This document shows positions 46,179-54,091 of a stretch of 64,000 nucleotides of DNA, piece by piece. The translations under genes and the position numbers were made by a program. Location: assembly GCF_900100335.1 (NCBI RefSeq), contig NZ_FNFE01000003.1, forward strand, positions 1 through 64,000. Direction: 5' to 3'. Source of the DNA: Natronorubrum texcoconense. Lineage in GTDB: Archaea > Halobacteriota > Halobacteria > Halobacteriales > Natrialbaceae. Position 1 is the first letter of the stretch, and each line of letters opens with the position of its first letter. A model generated the notes under the pieces. The model was not told the origin of the DNA and made no database searches. It saw only the letters and a program-made list of their open reading frames with translations.

Positions 46179-47672
46179 CTACTCTCCGGACGGGAGTCGA
46201 TAGCTCGCCCCGTCGTCGGTATCCTGTACCTCGATGCCGAGCGCCTCGAGCTCGTCGCGCAACTCGTCGGCCCGGTCGTAGTTCCCGTCCGCCCGCTCCT
46301 GCTCGCGGACGTCGAGAACGAGATCGACGACGTCGCCTGCGAGGTCGGCCGTCCCCGTCGTCTCGCCGACGAAGGAGAGTCCGAGGACGGCCCCGAGTTC
46401 CTCGAGGGTGTCGACGGCTCGTCGAAGCCCGCGATAGTCGAACTCCGAACGATCCTCGAGGTGGGAGTTGACCGCCGTCGCGACGGACAGTAAGGCGGAC
46501 TGCGCTTCTCGCGTGTTGAAGTCGTCGTTCATCGCCTCGACGAACGAGTCGCGAGCGTCGTCGACGGCCGTCCGCAACGACTCGTCGTCGACTTTCGTCC
46601 GCGCAGCGGTCGAATCCACCGCCTCGACGGCCGCGTCGTAGGCGCGCTCGAGTCGGTCCCAGCGCTCCTCGGCTTCGGCGATCGTCTCGTCGGAGTAGAG
46701 CTGTTTGCTGTTGTACGATCCCGCGGTGAGGAAGGTCCGTAACACGTTCGTCCCCCACCGGTCGACGGCCTCGTCGACGGTGACGAAGTTGCCCAGACTC
46801 GAGGACATCTTCTCGTCGTCCATCTGGAACAGCTCGCAGTGGAGCCAGTAGTTCGCGAACTGCTGGTCGGTCGCGGCCTCCGATTGGGCGATCTCGTTTT
46901 CGTGGTGGGGGAAGACGAGGTCCCGGCCGCCGACGTGGAGGTCCAGCGTCTCGTCGAGGTGGGTCATACTCATCGCCGAGCACTCGATGTGCCAGCCAGG
47001 GCGGCCCTCGCCCCACGGGGACTCCCAGGTCTGTCCCTCGGGGGTGTGATCGCAGTGGTCGACACCCTCGTGCCGGTGTTCGTGGACGGCGTTTTCGTCG
47101 ACGCTTCCGGCCTTCCAAAGTGCGAAGTCCGCGGGGTGGCGCTTCTCGGTCCGCTCGTCGGGGTCGCCCTGGGACTCGATCTCGTCGAGTTTCTGGTTCG
47201 AGAGTTTGCCGTACTCGTCGAAACTGGTGACGTCGAAGTAGACCGAGCCGTTCGACTCGTAGGCGTACCCCTTCTCGATCAACGTCTCGACGAGGTCGAC
47301 GATTTCGGGGACGTGCTCGGAGACGCGGGGATAGACCTCCGCGCGGAGCAAATTGAGCGAGCGCATATCTGCGAGCGTGTGCTCGATGTAGCTCTCCGCG
47401 ACCGACGCTTCGTCTTCGCCGAGGTCGTCTTCGCCCACGCGGGCGACGATCTTCTCGTTGACGTCGGTGAAGTTCTCGACGTGACGCACGTCGTACCCGA
47501 GGAACTCGAGCCAGCGGTGCATGACGTCGACGTGGACCCACGAGCGGGCGTGGCCCAGGTGTGGCGGATCCGAAACCGTCAGGCCACAGTAGTAGAGGAG
47601 AACGTTCTCCGGATCCTGTGGCTCGAACGGCTCGCGGTCGCCCGTTAACGTGTTCGTCACGTGCAGGGTCAT
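46179..47672 (-). CDS. cysS: Cysteinyl-tRNA synthetase
   Basis: A 497-residue class I synthetase that charges tRNA(Cys). The zinc-binding cysteine/histidine ligands begin at YYCGL (~29), the HIGH-type motif is [10 protein letters not shown] (~37-46), ECSAMSM carries further ligands (~230-236), [11 protein letters not shown] (~252) is canonical, and KMSSS is at ~290. The DALR anticodon-binding domain fills the C-terminus. The ATG at 47672 was chosen over a GTG at 47681. Confidence 0.96.
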
Positions 47673-48176
47673 GACGCTCACTTCCCGCGGCCGAAAGTTA
47701 AAGCGTGTGATGGGCTTCGACAGCGACTCGGCGACGTCGGGCGCCGAACGACGCCCGCCGTTGGGGCTCTCGATCGGGGTCGCCTGTCAGCCGTCGCTGG
47801 CGGAACGACGGCGGACGGACATCGAGTAATAGACAATTATTCTGATCGGTGTTCGCGCAGATTATACGTCTCTCTCGGTAATCGAATTTTACTGTTTCGA
47901 TCAGCTCAGCGACTCCCCGTCACCCGGGCAAAACTCGAGTGAAATAGTCGAAATGGCTTGCTACGTTTATGCCGGGTTGCTCGGTACGGATTTTCGACTC
48001 CGGTGAGAATTCGGACGGCATTTCGACCGCAGCCCACAGATGCGTGACATAACACGCTGTTTCACACCGGGGACCGTCTCGAGGCGATCACGTATGAGAG
48101 GATTACCAACGGACTCCAGAGCTGACGAACGACCGGGTATCGAACTAACACCACGTTATCTCCGCCGCCCAGAGTG
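47673..48176. other. Intergenic region before the giant membrane protein gene
   Basis: About 500 bp, AT-rich at 47825-47900, with no gene I can support. It should contain the cysS promoter (left end, minus strand) and the giant gene's promoter; a TATA-like ACGTTATC lies about 27 bp before 48177. No repeat or RNA was recognised. Confidence 0.4.
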
Positions 48177-51100
48177 ATGCATCGTCGACGGTTACAAACG
48201 GCGATAGTAATTCTGTTCGTCGCGCTATTGGCCTGTACCGCGAGCGCGACAGCGGCCGCGACCGTCGTCGACTCGAACGACGAGCTACCGGACGACGGCT
48301 CAATCGGTGAGACCGATGATCTCGAGTCGGTCGCCGACAGCGACGACGGTACGTCGACCGACGCGGAGGACGGGTCGGAAGCCGAACCGAACGACGATAC
48401 GCCGTCCGATGACGGTTCCGACGATGTCGACAGCGACAACAGCGATGATGATCCCGACAGCAGCGGTGACGACACCGATAACGACGATAGTAGTGACGGT
48501 GATGAAGCCACAGAGTCGGCAGTAGTCGCTGACGATCCAGACGCCGAGACCGGTAGCGAACCGGACGGGCCTGCATCGTCAGCACCCGATGAAACGAAAC
48601 CAGCAGCGGATCCGGAGCCGGTGGACGCGGACGAAACGCACGATTCCGAGCCGAGTACGCCGGAGCGTGCTGACGCCGACTCCGATGATCGGGCGGCGGT
48701 CGACGCCGAGCCCGATGAACCTGATTCGGATCGATCCGCTGAGCCGGACGCTGTGGACGATTCTGGCGACGAGTTCGACGGCGAAGGCGAGACGCCCGAC
48801 GATACCGACGAACGAACGACGCCGGACCCTGCCGAGGCGACCCCCGCTGACGAGTCAGTCGACGACGAGACCGAGAGAGCGGATCGGGGTCCCGCCGAAG
48901 AACCGGTTGAACGAGTTTCGAAGCCGCTGACGCAGGACGCGTCCTCCGACGAATCTACCGAGACGGAACAGGCCGATCCGGACCCGACTGGCGAAACGGA
49001 TCCCGCCGATGAGACGCAGCCCGCACCGAGCGACGAAACCGAAACACCGGGCGCCGAACAGTCCGACGAGACGACCCTCGCGCACGGGGACCCCGCTCCC
49101 GACACTGACCACGAGCCGTCCGCCGTAAGTGAGGAGGAATCGTCCACCGATGACGAACCGGGAGCGGATTCATCCGGCCAGCCGGACGATATCGATGACG
49201 GCGAAGAGACAGCGGAAACTGCTGGTAACGACGGATCCGGCGTGCTACCCGATAGGGAAATCGACGGATCCAATGCGGTACTCGACAGCGAAGCAGACGA
49301 ATCAGATAGAAATATCGACGAGCATTCCCCGGCTCTCGGGAATTCGCCGGGAGTCACGAATGGCTCCGACGGAACGGACGAAGACACGACCGAAACCGGT
49401 TCTGAACCCATCGAAGACGACGGAGAGATACCCATCGTGTCCGACGCGTCCGCCGACGGCTTCGAAGAGACCGAGCCGGCGACGACGAACGGATCGGTTA
49501 TCGACGCTGACGACACCGACAATGGGTCGGAATCGACGCCCTCGAGCGAGCGACCTGAAGCGACGGATGCCGTCGGAGAGGATGATCTCCGGAGCGAGGG
49601 CGGTATCCTCGCGTCGCCGACGGACGTAACCGAGCCTGTCGATCCCACGGACCGAGACGACGCCGTAGGCGGTCCCCAGAGCGATGACTCCGTCGAAATT
49701 CCGGGCGAGAACGAGACCGAAGCAGTCGACGGTGCGGCGCGGACGACGATGGAGACGGTGCCCGCCGCCGAACCAGACATCGCCGAAATCGAAGCGATCG
49801 ACGAGACGGACGGCAGCAACGCGACTGAAGCAATCGGCTCGACTACCGATCCATCCGACCGTGAGGAGACGCCCGATCTCGGCGACTCGAGCGACGACGT
49901 TGCACCTCCGGCTATCGTGAACGATTCCGTGGGAGCGACTGCCGACACTGCTACCGAACTCGTCGACCCCGACTCGAGTGACTCTCTCACTATCGGCCCG
50001 GAGAGCCTCCCCGTCGACGAGTCCCTCGTCACTACCGACGACGGACTCGAGACCGTCGTCGAAGACGGTGCCGAAGCGGCCAGTGATGGTGTCGACGGGT
50101 CGGCTATCGATGACGGCGGCGTGTCCGTCATCAACGGAGCTACCGAGACACCCATCGGAGGTGTAACCGAAGACGGAGTCGAGGTAGCGGTCGACGATGC
50201 CGCCGAGTCGCCTCCGGAAACGACCGAGACGCCCGACTCCGACGACGTCCCCTCGGTGACCGTGCTCGACTCGTCCCGGTCGACCGTCGACGAGACCCTC
50301 GATGGACCGGTCGGGTCGCTCGAGGCGGAACCGAACTCGACCGAAACAGAATTGCCCGTGACCGAACCGCTCGACGAGTCCGACGATGTCGTGGAAGCCG
50401 TCGAGACGGTCGTCGACCCCATCGAGACGGGTTCCGACCCGGTCACGGAGACGATCGGCGAGAGGAACCTGACCGCAACGGCTGGTGACGACACCCGTAT
50501 CGGCGTGACAGCGGGGACGGGTGACGGATTGACCGTCGGAACGACAGCCGAAACGGTCGGCGATACCAGCCTCGGAATCGGCGCTGAGCCGACCGGCGAG
50601 ACGCCCCTCGACATCGATGGCACGACGGTCGGCGACACTAGCCTCGGAATCGGAACCGAGACGGCCGACGGAGTGACAGTCGACCTCTCCGGCGAAACGG
50701 TTGGTGAGACGTCGTTCGGGACCACTGCCAACGTCTCCGACGGCGTTCGCGCTGACCTCGACGCGGACGCGGTGGGTGATTCTACCGTCACCGTCGGTGC
50801 TGAAACAACCGACGGACGCTCCGTTGACGCGGCTCTCGACACGATCGGCGAGACTACGGTCGGACTCTCCGCGGGGGCGACCGACGGTCTCGATCTCCGA
50901 ACTACTGTCGCGACGGGCGACGACGGTCTCGATCTCCGAACTACTGTCGCGACGGGCGACGACGGTCTCGGACTGACTCTCGAGTCGAACGCGACAACCG
51001 GGCTCGCGGCTCCGAACTCGAGCGATCGAATCGGTCCCGGTCTCGAGTCGTCAACCTCGATCACCGCGACGGGTCTCGAACCCGTCGACGAACTCCGGAT

Positions 51101-52775
51101 AACGGCGGATAGCGCTGACGGCAGCCTCTCGACGACGGCCGACCTTCCTGTCACCGAGTCGCCGATCAGCGTCGCGACCGATCCCGGTGGTCTTCTCGAG
51201 CGTGCGATCGATCCACCGTCCGGTCACGGAGACGGGGCACTTCTCGACGCTCGAGTTGGCGACGCGTCGATCGCGGACATCCGCCTCGGAGACGAGCCGA
51301 TTGCCGATGTTCGAATCGGCGACGTAGTGGGCGTAACGATTGATCCCGCCGGTTCGTCACCCCAGCTCATCACCGTCGAAACGCCCATCGGCCAGTCGTC
51401 GGCGGGACCGACGATATCCGAACCGAGCGCTGGAGTCCCACAAATCACTGATCGAAGCGACCCGACTGCGACAGTCGAGGGAGTTGATCTCTCCGAGATG
51501 GCAGATATTCAGCCGACGACCGATGGCAGTCTGGCCGTGGTACCGAGCACCCCGTTCATCGGCGGAGACGCCCCGATCCTGACGACGACGGTTTCCGACC
51601 CCGTCGCTGGGATCGCTCCTCTCGGTCCGTCCGACGATCCGTCGCCGATCGACCCGATGGCGGGCACGGTATCGGCCGGTCCGATGGCGGACGCGGTATC
51701 GATCGGTCCGACGGCCGACTCGGCGGTCGGCTCTCCGTTCCTCGAGGCTGCTCCGTCGTCTCCCAGCCATGGGACCACCACCTCGCCCGAAGCGACAGCA
51801 CCGTCCGGTGAGTCGGCCACTGTCACCGGAAGTGGCGACGGCGCCTCTGCCTACGGGGCCACACCGAGCGAATTCATCGGGTCACCCGCGGAGCGAGACG
51901 GTGCGGCGGCCGACCGGTCGGGGGATCCCGACATCGGGACGATCGCTTCCCCGCTGTCCACCGACGACCCGGGAGCCGGTTCGGCACCGACTGACGACGG
52001 CGGCTCCGCTTTCGCACCCGCCGACGAACCGTCTGGGAGCGACATACCGTTGCCGGACGGCACTGCGACCGGTCTCGCGGGGCTGTTGCTACTCGGCGGG
52101 ATCGTGGCGGGTCGATCGTTCGCCACCGCGTCAACGGCGTTCGTCGGCACCTCTGCAACGACCGTGACGCTCCAGCTTCGGACGCTGTTCGCCGCGATCC
52201 GCCGCTGGCTTCGCCACCTGTTGTGGGCGTTCGGTCTGTTCGGCTACAGCCGGTACGACGACACCGACCCGCTCGAGCACGAGAAACGAGCGGCCCTGCA
52301 CGACACGATCGAGGCATCGCCGGGGATCAATCTCACCGAACTGAGCGAGGAGAGCGGCATCTCGCGCTCGACCGCACGCTACCACCTGCGGATCCTCGAG
52401 CACGAAAACCTCGTCGTCACGTCCAAAATCCGCGGCAAGCGCCGGTACTACCTCGTTACCGCGGAGAACCACGAACTTACGGCGTCGATTCGGGACGAAT
52501 CGACAGCCGCAGTCCTCGAGGAACTCGCCGACTGCGAACCGGCGACCGGCTCGGAGCTCGCCGACGAACTCGAGCGAGATCCGAGCACGATCACACACCA
52601 CCTGAGCCGGCTCGAGGACGCGGATCTCGTCGAACGCGAACGCGACGGCCGATCCGTCCGCAATCGACTCACGCCGGATGCCCGGGCCGCCTTGGCGATC
52701 CGAGAACGGACGCCACCGCCGGTGGCCCAGGAAGAGACCGCGGACTCCGACTCTCCGTCGAACGTCGCCGACTGA
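48177..52775 (+). CDS. Giant membrane-anchored winged-helix protein with acidic extracellular region
   Basis: A 1,532-residue protein. Residues ~1-28 form a signal peptide; ~30-1,290 are extracellular by this topology, extremely rich in Asp, Glu, Ser and Thr with almost no cysteine or lysine. Residues ~770-960 hold beta-type repeats (GETVGxTSxGxG pattern), including two exact 13-residue copies. A TM helix lies at 1299-1319, then two winged helices (about 1366-1430 and 1440-1500; SISRSTARYHLRILE-like and PSTITHHLSRLEDADLVER). The layout is that of a one-component membrane regulator. Ligand and target genes unknown. The ATG at 48177 is preferred over the GTG at 48174. Confidence 0.85.
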   Translation: MHRRRLQTAIVILFVALLACTASATAAATVVDSNDELPDDGSIGETDDLESVADSDDGTSTDAEDGSEAEPNDDTPSDDGSDDVDSDNSDDDPDSSGDDTDNDDSSDGDEATESAVVADDPDAETGSEPDGPASSAPDETKPAADPEPVDADETHDSEPSTPERADADSDDRAAVDAEPDEPDSDRSAEPDAVDDSGDEFDGEGETPDDTDERTTPDPAEATPADESVDDETERADRGPAEEPVERVSKPLTQDASSDESTETEQADPDPTGETDPADETQPAPSDETETPGAEQSDETTLAHGDPAPDTDHEPSAVSEEESSTDDEPGADSSGQPDDIDDGEETAETAGNDGSGVLPDREIDGSNAVLDSEADESDRNIDEHSPALGNSPGVTNGSDGTDEDTTETGSEPIEDDGEIPIVSDASADGFEETEPATTNGSVIDADDTDNGSESTPSSERPEATDAVGEDDLRSEGGILASPTDVTEPVDPTDRDDAVGGPQSDDSVEIPGENETEAVDGAARTTMETVPAAEPDIAEIEAIDETDGSNATEAIGSTTDPSDREETPDLGDSSDDVAPPAIVNDSVGATADTATELVDPDSSDSLTIGPESLPVDESLVTTDDGLETVVEDGAEAASDGVDGSAIDDGGVSVINGATETPIGGVTEDGVEVAVDDAAESPPETTETPDSDDVPSVTVLDSSRSTVDETLDGPVGSLEAEPNSTETELPVTEPLDESDDVVEAVETVVDPIETGSDPVTETIGERNLTATAGDDTRIGVTAGTGDGLTVGTTAETVGDTSLGIGAEPTGETPLDIDGTTVGDTSLGIGTETADGVTVDLSGETVGETSFGTTANVSDGVRADLDADAVGDSTVTVGAETTDGRSVDAALDTIGETTVGLSAGATDGLDLRTTVATGDDGLDLRTTVATGDDGLGLTLESNATTGLAAPNSSDRIGPGLESSTSITATGLEPVDELRITADSADGSLSTTADLPVTESPISVATDPGGLLERAIDPPSGHGDGALLDARVGDASIADIRLGDEPIADVRIGDVVGVTIDPAGSSPQLITVETPIGQSSAGPTISEPSAGVPQITDRSDPTATVEGVDLSEMADIQPTTDGSLAVVPSTPFIGGDAPILTTTVSDPVAGIAPLGPSDDPSPIDPMAGTVSAGPMADAVSIGPTADSAVGSPFLEAAPSSPSHGTTTSPEATAPSGESATVTGSGDGASAYGATPSEFIGSPAERDGAAADRSGDPDIGTIASPLSTDDPGAGSAPTDDGGSAFAPADEPSGSDIPLPDGTATGLAGLLLLGGIVAGRSFATASTAFVGTSATTVTLQLRTLFAAIRRWLRHLLWAFGLFGYSRYDDTDPLEHEKRAALHDTIEASPGINLTELSEESGISRSTARYHLRILEHENLVVTSKIRGKRRYYLVTAENHELTASIRDESTAAVLEELADCEPATGSELADELERDPSTITHHLSRLEDADLVERERDGRSVRNRLTPDARAALAIRERTPPPVAQEETADSDSPSNVAD
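50883..50960 (+). repeat. Exact 39-bp tandem duplication in the giant gene
   Basis: Two identical in-frame 39-bp units (50883-50921 and 50922-50960), each encoding DGLDLRTTVATGD, are followed by a partial third unit (DGLGLT). Identity at all positions points to a recent duplication or ongoing slippage within the beta-repeat region. Confidence 0.85.
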
Positions 52776-52873
52776 CGTCCGTCCCCGGCGATCGGCCGTC
52801 CCCGGCGATCGGCCGATTCTTGGACGGAGTGGTCAGAACCGCTTTTTCTATCGGTTGTCACGTCCCGAACGAG

Positions 52874-53164
52874 ATGATCCGACACGACGCGACCGTCGTA
52901 TCCATGGCCAATACTGCATTGCCGTTCAAATCGCCCCCCGAACCCGAGCTACTGGCTCGGTACCAGCGGATCCTCGACTGCCTCGACTCGCTCTCGGGAG
53001 CGGTACCGGTCGACCGACTCGCCGACGAACTGCTGGCGCTGGAGCCAGCCGCCGACGTCGAACGGATTCGAATTCGACTGCATCACAGCGACCTTCCGCG
53101 GCTCGAGGATACCGGAGTGCTCTCGTACGATCGAACTCGACGACACGTCCGGCTCCTCGAGTGA
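52874..53164 (+). CDS. Small winged-helix protein (DUF7344-like)
   Basis: A 96-residue DNA-binding-like protein. Residues ~30-95 form a winged helix (RYQRILDCLDSLSGAVPVD, then RIRIRLHHSDLPRLEDTGVL and YDRTRRHVRLLE), the pattern of haloarchaeal DUF7344 regulators. A TATA-like TTTTTCTATC lies near 52840, about 30 bp upstream; a second ATG at 52904 is possible. It follows the giant winged-helix protein on the same strand by about 100 bp, so the two may share a regulatory role. Confidence 0.75.
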   Translation: MIRHDATVVSMANTALPFKSPPEPELLARYQRILDCLDSLSGAVPVDRLADELLALEPAADVERIRIRLHHSDLPRLEDTGVLSYDRTRRHVRLLE

Positions 53165-53235
53165 AGTCCGTGCTCGGTCGACTGCGAGTCGCCCGCGACT
53201 CGCGTACGAGCGACGAACAACTACGCGACGAGCGA

Positions 53236-53727
53236 TCACTCGATGGGCACTGCCTCGAGCGCGTCCTCGACCGCTCGCAACGCGTTCGCCCCCTCGAGTC
53301 GGTCGACGATGACGACGATCGAATCGTCCCCCACGGCGGCTGCAGCAGGGGTAATCTCCTCGAGGTTCAGTCCCTGCAGGACCGCAGCGAGGGCGGCCGC
53401 GTCGACGGCCCCCATCGCGACGATCGCCGTCCGATCGCCGCCGCTGGGACCGAACGACGTCCCGCCGACGGCGATCAGTGCATCGTTCGATCCGGGGTCG
53501 ACCGAACCGATCCCGCTCTCCATCCTGACCCGTACGTCGCGAGCGTCGCGTTCGTACGCCGGCAGTTCCTCGGCGTACCGCCGCAGCGCCGTCGCGACCG
53601 CGTCGACCTCGCCGTCGATCTCGAGAAACCGGGCAGCGGCGGTGTAGTTCACGATCCCCGCTCGCAGTGCTGTGCGAAGAACAGGATGCCCGTCGGCGGC
53701 ACGGCGAGTCTCGGCTGCCAGTGACAT
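53236..53727 (-). CDS. Conserved haloarchaeal protein of unknown function (DUF7523-like)
   Basis: A 163-residue soluble protein. N-terminal helices (MSLAAETRRAADGHPVLR, ALRAGIVNYTAAARFLEI) resemble a helix-turn-helix-like fold and the rest forms alternating strands and helices (SIVVIVDRLEGANALRAVED). I place it in a haloarchaeal family, probably DUF7523, with no known activity. It is divergent from bolA, with about 110 bp between the starts. Confidence 0.7.
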   Translation of the reverse strand: MSLAAETRRAADGHPVLRTALRAGIVNYTAAARFLEIDGEVDAVATALRRYAEELPAYERDARDVRVRMESGIGSVDPGSNDALIAVGGTSFGPSGGDRTAIVAMGAVDAAALAAVLQGLNLEEITPAAAAVGDDSIVVIVDRLEGANALRAVEDALEAVPIE

Positions 53728-53836
53728 ACCACAGGGAGCGAACCACGTCACTATAAATTCGACGACGCCAGCGGGCCGATGTGGGTCGGGGAAGACGGAC
53801 CGCGGCGTTTTTGCCTCGAGCGCCCAACCCTCGAGT

Positions 53837-54091
53837 ATGGAACTGGACGATATCGAGGAGCTCATCGAATCGAACCTCGAGGACGCAGACGTCACGGTCA
53901 CGCACGCACGCGACAAGCACGACGACGATCACCTCGCGGCGACCGTGATCTCGCCGGCGTTCGACGGCGTCCCGCTGGTCCAGCAACACCAGCAGGTCTA
54001 CGACGCCCTCGGCGACCACATGACGACCGACATCCACGCCCTCGAGCTCTCGACGTACACGCCCGAGGAGTACGACGAGTACGAAGGGTGA
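53837..54091 (+). CDS. BolA family protein
   Basis: An 84-residue protein of the BolA/IbaG class. It starts MELDDIEELIESNLEDADV and carries HARDKHDDDHLAATVISPAFDG, the strand-turn with conserved His, then VPLVQQHQQVYDALGDHM, the typical BolA helix. BolA proteins work with monothiol glutaredoxins or in Fe-S and redox control. The ATG at 53837 matches the family N-terminus. Confidence 0.9.
   Translation: MELDDIEELIESNLEDADVTVTHARDKHDDDHLAATVISPAFDGVPLVQQHQQVYDALGDHMTTDIHALELSTYTPEEYDEYEG

Follow-up and report, generated by a model that had tools for sequence, protein, structure and literature searches.

Analysis of 64,000 nucleotides of Natronorubrum texcoconense DNA (the window) revealed a complete gene at 48177..52775 on the forward strand. 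Its frame is intact over 1,532 codons plus the stop codon, with no interruption along it, as expected for the single 1,532-residue open reading frame given in the initial annotation. An ATG stands at 48177, and a GTG is present in frame one codon upstream. The product, P0001, comprises in order a signal segment, an acidic ectodomain, a predicted transmembrane (TM) helix, a juxtamembrane helix and two winged helices. An antisense open reading frame at 48062-51154 (1,030 aa) was rejected as a gene, as it is a composition shadow with 29% Ser and 7% D/E.

The P0001 gene and a small downstream gene for a DUF7344 protein (52904..53164, forward strand) stand between cysS (46179-47681, reverse strand) and a DUF7523 gene (53236-53916, reverse strand). 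A DUF7344 gene also lies downstream of the homologous gene at L108 and L043, two loci with large ectodomains. L043, found on a metagenome contig, carries winged-helix, DUF7344-like and DUF7523-like genes in the order seen in the window, and in genome G016 a homologous gene and a DUF7344-like gene occupy the same site as in the window. The signal peptide of the G016 homologue (L108, 5669-8206 on the reverse strand, and upstream) lies in a different frame from the remainder, and hence this copy is broken, frameshifted or mis-sequenced. In the nearest relative, G109, whose flanks show 91-93% DNA identity, 171 bp replaces window positions 47712-53245. Between cysS and the DUF7523 gene, G109, G105 and G101 have an empty site; G104 and G108 have an SDR-type and a patatin-like gene (named by eye) there. 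With the stretch missing from G109, and with no gene or unrelated genes at this position in other Natronorubrum genomes, the P0001 gene is located at a variable site. A search for operators upstream of the gene found weak inverted repeats only.

Residues 1-28 (48177..48260; MHRRR...LLACTASATAAA) have the properties of a typical signal peptide, with a KD value of 2.34 and a dG of -1.6 kcal/mol, in agreement with the N-terminal signal peptide first proposed for this protein. The end of the segment is of the AxA type (...ATAAA), where the cleavage site was placed by eye, and Cys20 (window 48234-48236) lies inside the hydrophobic core. Cysteine was found in the core of the signal segment in 31 of 48 long family members; among background N-terminal hydrophobic segments the figure was 11 of 83 (Fisher p 3e-9, with kinship among members ignored), and most of the Cys-bearing segments showed no lipobox by eye. 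The signal segment of the long members may be a retained anchor instead of a cleaved signal.

The ectodomain of P0001 is 1,264-1,265 residues long, acidic and rich in Ser and Thr, and its composition confirmed the roughly 1,260 Asp/Glu/Ser/Thr-rich residues described initially. Its first part, residues 32-768 (48270..50480), is of low hydrophobicity, with 24-39% D/E and at most 5% K/R per 100 residues. Taken together, residues 32-800 contain 32% D/E and 2% K/R and carry a net charge of -229; D/E falls to 17% in residues 801-1290. The second part, residues 937-1295 (50985..52061), is rich in Ser, Thr, Gly and Pro by composition and extends to the membrane. Six copies of a 24-residue repeat occur at residues 769-912 (50481..50912), with a DNA period of 72 bp and an autocorrelation of 0.43 at lag 24, 0.39 at lag 48 and negative values at lags 1 and 3. 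The repeat has the consensus-like sequence TVGDTSLGIGTETADGVTVDLSGE, in which hydrophobic residues alternate as in beta-strands, and the block was predicted as all strands by a single-sequence model at low confidence (block pLDDT 75 at best). Shorter tandem DNA repeats are present at 48422-48482, 50875-50970 and 51654-51723. The ectodomain is thus repeat-containing, as had been stated, but locally and not over its whole length.

Comparison of ectodomains between the members of the family revealed a range of 145-1,264 residues, with sequence and length varying freely. The median in the scored family set is 227 residues and the next longest ectodomain has 488, so the external region of P0001 is as unusual in size as was first remarked. 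Neither Pfam nor pairwise comparison detected a conserved domain or sequence among the ectodomains of the relatives, including the large ectodomain of L043; any likeness is one of composition. Homology of the P0001 ectodomain to those of its relatives was rejected: the best blastp match of residues 32-1295 had an E-value of 0.018, which is not meaningful because ten shuffled copies reached 0.057 at best.

Apart from residues 1-28, the only predicted membrane segment of P0001 is residues 1296-1318 (52062..52130), with a KD value of 1.58 and a dG of -0.28 kcal/mol, the lowest for a second TM segment among the family members scored. The best competing segments have a dG of +4.8 in the ectodomain and +6.0 in the cytoplasmic part; a spot check of the dG parameters on bacteriorhodopsin helices gave -2.1 to +2.7. 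Shuffling the C-terminal tail reaches the KD value of the TM segment in 10% of cases, and AlphaFold2 gave the TM region a pLDDT below 50 with no confident helix; the case for the TM helix therefore rests on its conserved position and on the glycosylation sequons described below. The single TM helix placed initially at residues 1299-1319 was accordingly recovered as a predicted segment, but one of marginal hydrophobicity that is not confidently modelled. A basic amphipathic juxtamembrane helix follows at residues 1329-1355 (52161..52241; AlphaFold2, pLDDT about 80). Most long members carry a net positive charge over the 45 residues that precede the signature motif; in nearly all short members the net charge there is zero or below.

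Ectodomains located outside the cell would be expected to accumulate N-glycosylation sequons, in contrast to the cytoplasmic part. N-X-S/T motifs were counted in 49 long members and compared with shuffled sequences, using the reversed motif, a shifted motif and the cytoplasmic part as controls. The ectodomains contained 299 sequons against 120 expected (2.5-fold enrichment), while the reversed and shifted motifs occurred at 0.97 and 0.72 times expectation and the cytoplasmic side had 17 sequons against 22 expected. The family totals are not independent counts because the members are related; the reversed-motif control uses the same sequences. P0001 itself has 11 ectodomain sequons against 4 expected (p about 0.001), and both P0001 and the family thus show the sequon excess of an N-glycosylated surface protein. 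Judged from these motifs, the ectodomain of P0001 is probably N-glycosylated. The orientation proposed at the outset, with the repeats outside and the DNA-binding part inside, is supported by hydropathy, by the net-positive juxtamembrane region of most long relatives and by a strong sequon enrichment that is confined to the ectodomain.

The cytoplasmic part begins with the signature YSRYDDTDPLEH at residues 1357-1368 (52245..52280), in which the Y, D, P and L columns are invariant in relatives. Winged helix 1 (residues 1369-1433, 52281..52475) matches PF24266 (HTH_HVO_0163_N) with 43.6 bits against a cut-off of 31, and with 38 bits in the genome search. Winged helix 2 (residues 1434-1505, 52476..52691) follows directly and is ArsR/MarR-like by Pfam and AlphaFold2. 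The two C-terminal winged helices of the initial annotation are well founded: both match several HTH families above cut-off, of the PF24266 and ArsR/MarR types, with Pfam hits far above it, and both were modelled at a pLDDT of about 95-98. A fold search returned generic winged-helix matches only. The relatives show little or no variation in the recognition-helix residues, with the recognition helix of the second domain conserved as in PF24266 tandem winged-helix (wHTH) proteins, and we infer that the tandem binds DNA. Winged helix 2 scores 69.6 with NF033788, yet it has a single cysteine (DCEPATG) and no Cys metal site; a metalloregulator of the ArsR/SmtB type with a Cys-based site was rejected for want of a Cys pair.

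The C-terminal 243 residues of P0001 have one full-length match in their own genome. Homologues of this part were found in 75 of 125 Natrialbaceae genomes at an E-value of at most 1e-15, a count that takes in partial matches to shorter paralogues; 66 loci were retrieved for comparison. The search for orthologues of the same architecture yielded about 50 long haloarchaeal relatives, nearly all with signal peptide, ectodomain, TM helix, motif and tandem winged helices. Because nearly all long relatives retain this fusion, expression of the winged-helix part as a separate protein is unsupported. A phylum-wide search outside the halophile order found the same domain order in L131, L133 and L138, whose ectodomains are about 45 residues long; we infer these relatives to be of methanogen type from their placement and from the PF24266 control hits in Methanocaldococcus and Methanosarcina. 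In the tree, P0001 pairs with L013 from G016 (support 100/96) within the long-form half, and a group of 12 short forms lies away from it. Short relatives of 237-301 aa (L068, L078, L084, L088, L089, L093, L094, L100-L102 and L107) form one group; they keep a signal-like N-terminus and lack the second TM segment (dG 3.2 to 6.2). The tandem winged-helix protein of these short relatives, which belong to a sister clade, is therefore predicted to be exported, and topology cannot be uniform across the superfamily. P0001 is the largest intact example of the family found in this analysis; its size is extreme within a family that is widespread, apparently unstudied and not unique to the window. No study of the PF24266 tandem-wHTH family or of COG3398 was found in the literature, and HVO_0163 was found in one passing mention. 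The PF24266 relatives are annotated as 'helix-turn-helix domain-containing protein' or 'winged helix-turn-helix transcriptional regulator', and plasmid-borne homologues only as generic HTH proteins.

Many Natrialbaceae members (L071, L109, L113 and others) are flanked by mutS on one side and by a gas-vesicle cluster (gvpO, N, A, F, G, J) on the other, and at least 44 of 71 long Natrialbaceae members are within 12 kb of gvpA. In four genomes the family gene occurs without any gvp gene; mutS remains adjacent where gvp is absent. A role as dedicated gas-vesicle regulator was rejected for the P0001 gene, which is not gvp-linked. Immediately upstream of their start codons, the mutS-linked members share the block GACTGTCACGAAACGGAAAA-CGTATTACG (for example at about 4973-5202 of L071), which is probably a core promoter or operator. 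The linkage of many members to mutS and gas-vesicle genes indicates places to look for regulatory targets.

Overall, our analysis suggests that P0001 is probably a one-component transcription regulator that is tethered to the membrane in type I topology and bears a polyanionic stalk, long and glycosylated. A Sec signal would carry the N-terminus outside, where the stalk of about 1,265 residues would be flexible, strongly acidic and probably N-glycosylated and would include a short segment of beta repeats; one helix would span the membrane, and the basic juxtamembrane helix and the two winged helices would act on DNA from the inner membrane face. Changes acting on the stalk (pull, crowding, the state of the surface or S-layer, or ionic condition) would in turn affect how the winged helices dimerise or how far they reach, and sensing of surface, salt or contact by P0001 is plausible. 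A specific ligand pocket in P0001 is disfavoured, as the ectodomain has no conserved fold; with neither fold nor sequence detectably conserved, a stalk, brush or load-bearing polymer fits better than a ligand-binding sensor. Since the DNA-binding half is conserved and the stalk sequence drifts, a bulk property such as charge, length, glycans or pull is the better guess for what the stalk would sense, if it senses at all.

The same conservation of the DNA-binding half, against an ectodomain that drifts in sequence and length, makes it distinctly unlikely that P0001 is mainly a surface or structural glycoprotein, whose ectodomain would be its function and whose winged helices would regulate it or anchor it to the nucleoid, even though the ectodomain forms most of its mass, is polyanionic and sequon-rich, and hydrophobic residues in the ectodomains of other members recur on average at 4, 7, 11 and 18 residues, as in helical stalks. 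Release in the manner of Notch, in which an intramembrane protease would cut the ectodomain or TM helix and the freed tandem winged-helix part would act, is considered unlikely. The TM helices are Ala/Gly-rich and weakly hydrophobic across the family, and haloarchaea have rhomboids, CAAX-type metalloproteases and SPP/presenilin-like proteases (PMC9263693); however, no protease gene is conserved beside the family genes, no cleavage motif was identified, and the TM regulators described so far are regarded as working from the membrane (PMC10269533). Export of the entire protein, with winged helices outside binding extracellular DNA or something else, would be in keeping with the signal-bearing short relatives that lack a second TM segment; it is very improbable for P0001, as the long members have a second hydrophobic segment, in most cases a positively charged juxtamembrane region, and a sequon enrichment confined to the part before that segment.

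Beyond the membrane-tethered regulator preferred for P0001, the proteins may conceivably constitute a large archaeal family of surface receptors that are Notch-like or gated by mechanical force. In place of a folded ligand-binding domain, a polyelectrolyte stalk that is unfolded, glycosylated and free to evolve would act through one helix directly on a tandem DNA-binding unit, and the physical state of envelope or brine would be read into transcription; this generalisation is doubtful. If the present account of the family is right, haloarchaea and methanogens would have in common widespread, apparently unstudied one-chain signal-to-DNA proteins. With its sequence so weakly constrained, the extracellular half would be unlikely to act as a conventional ligand sensor, and the family would offer a clean system for studying what can be passed across a membrane by a glycosylated surface chain that lacks structure.

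Comparison with known systems places P0001 closest in sequence features to the PF24266 tandem-wHTH proteins, which likewise have PF24266 above cut-off, a second ArsR/MarR-like wHTH and a YSRYDDSDPLEH-type motif, and whose long members share the signal, ectodomain and TM helix. P0001 differs from them in its ectodomain (1,264 against a median of 227 residues in the scored set), in its 24-residue beta repeat and in adjoining cysS instead of mutS. ArnR, which the initial annotation had offered for comparison, is likewise a membrane-bound archaeal one-component regulator but a poor fit, as ArnR/ArnR1 of Sulfolobus have an N-terminal HTH, a HAMP and a sensor domain and two C-terminal TM helices (PMC6396743), so that domain order and TM number differ. 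The closest architectural parallel is provided by the DUF7345-TM-DUF7343 proteins of the same genome, where four proteins, unrelated to P0001, have both domains; they share the signal segment, ectodomain, single TM helix and C-terminal winged helix. Unlike P0001, they have a conserved ectodomain family (DUF7345), another wHTH family and open frames of 371-694 aa, and the DUF7343 and DUF7345 models gave no match to P0001 or the window locus. Transmembrane transcription regulators (TTRs), a recognised class that is widespread in archaea and mostly single-pass (PMC10269533), are the right general class for P0001, which like them combines a DNA-binding domain, here a wHTH, and a TM segment (dG -0.28, weakly modelled) in one chain. 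P0001 differs in that its DNA-binding part is C-terminal and is preceded by a signal segment and an ectodomain of great length.
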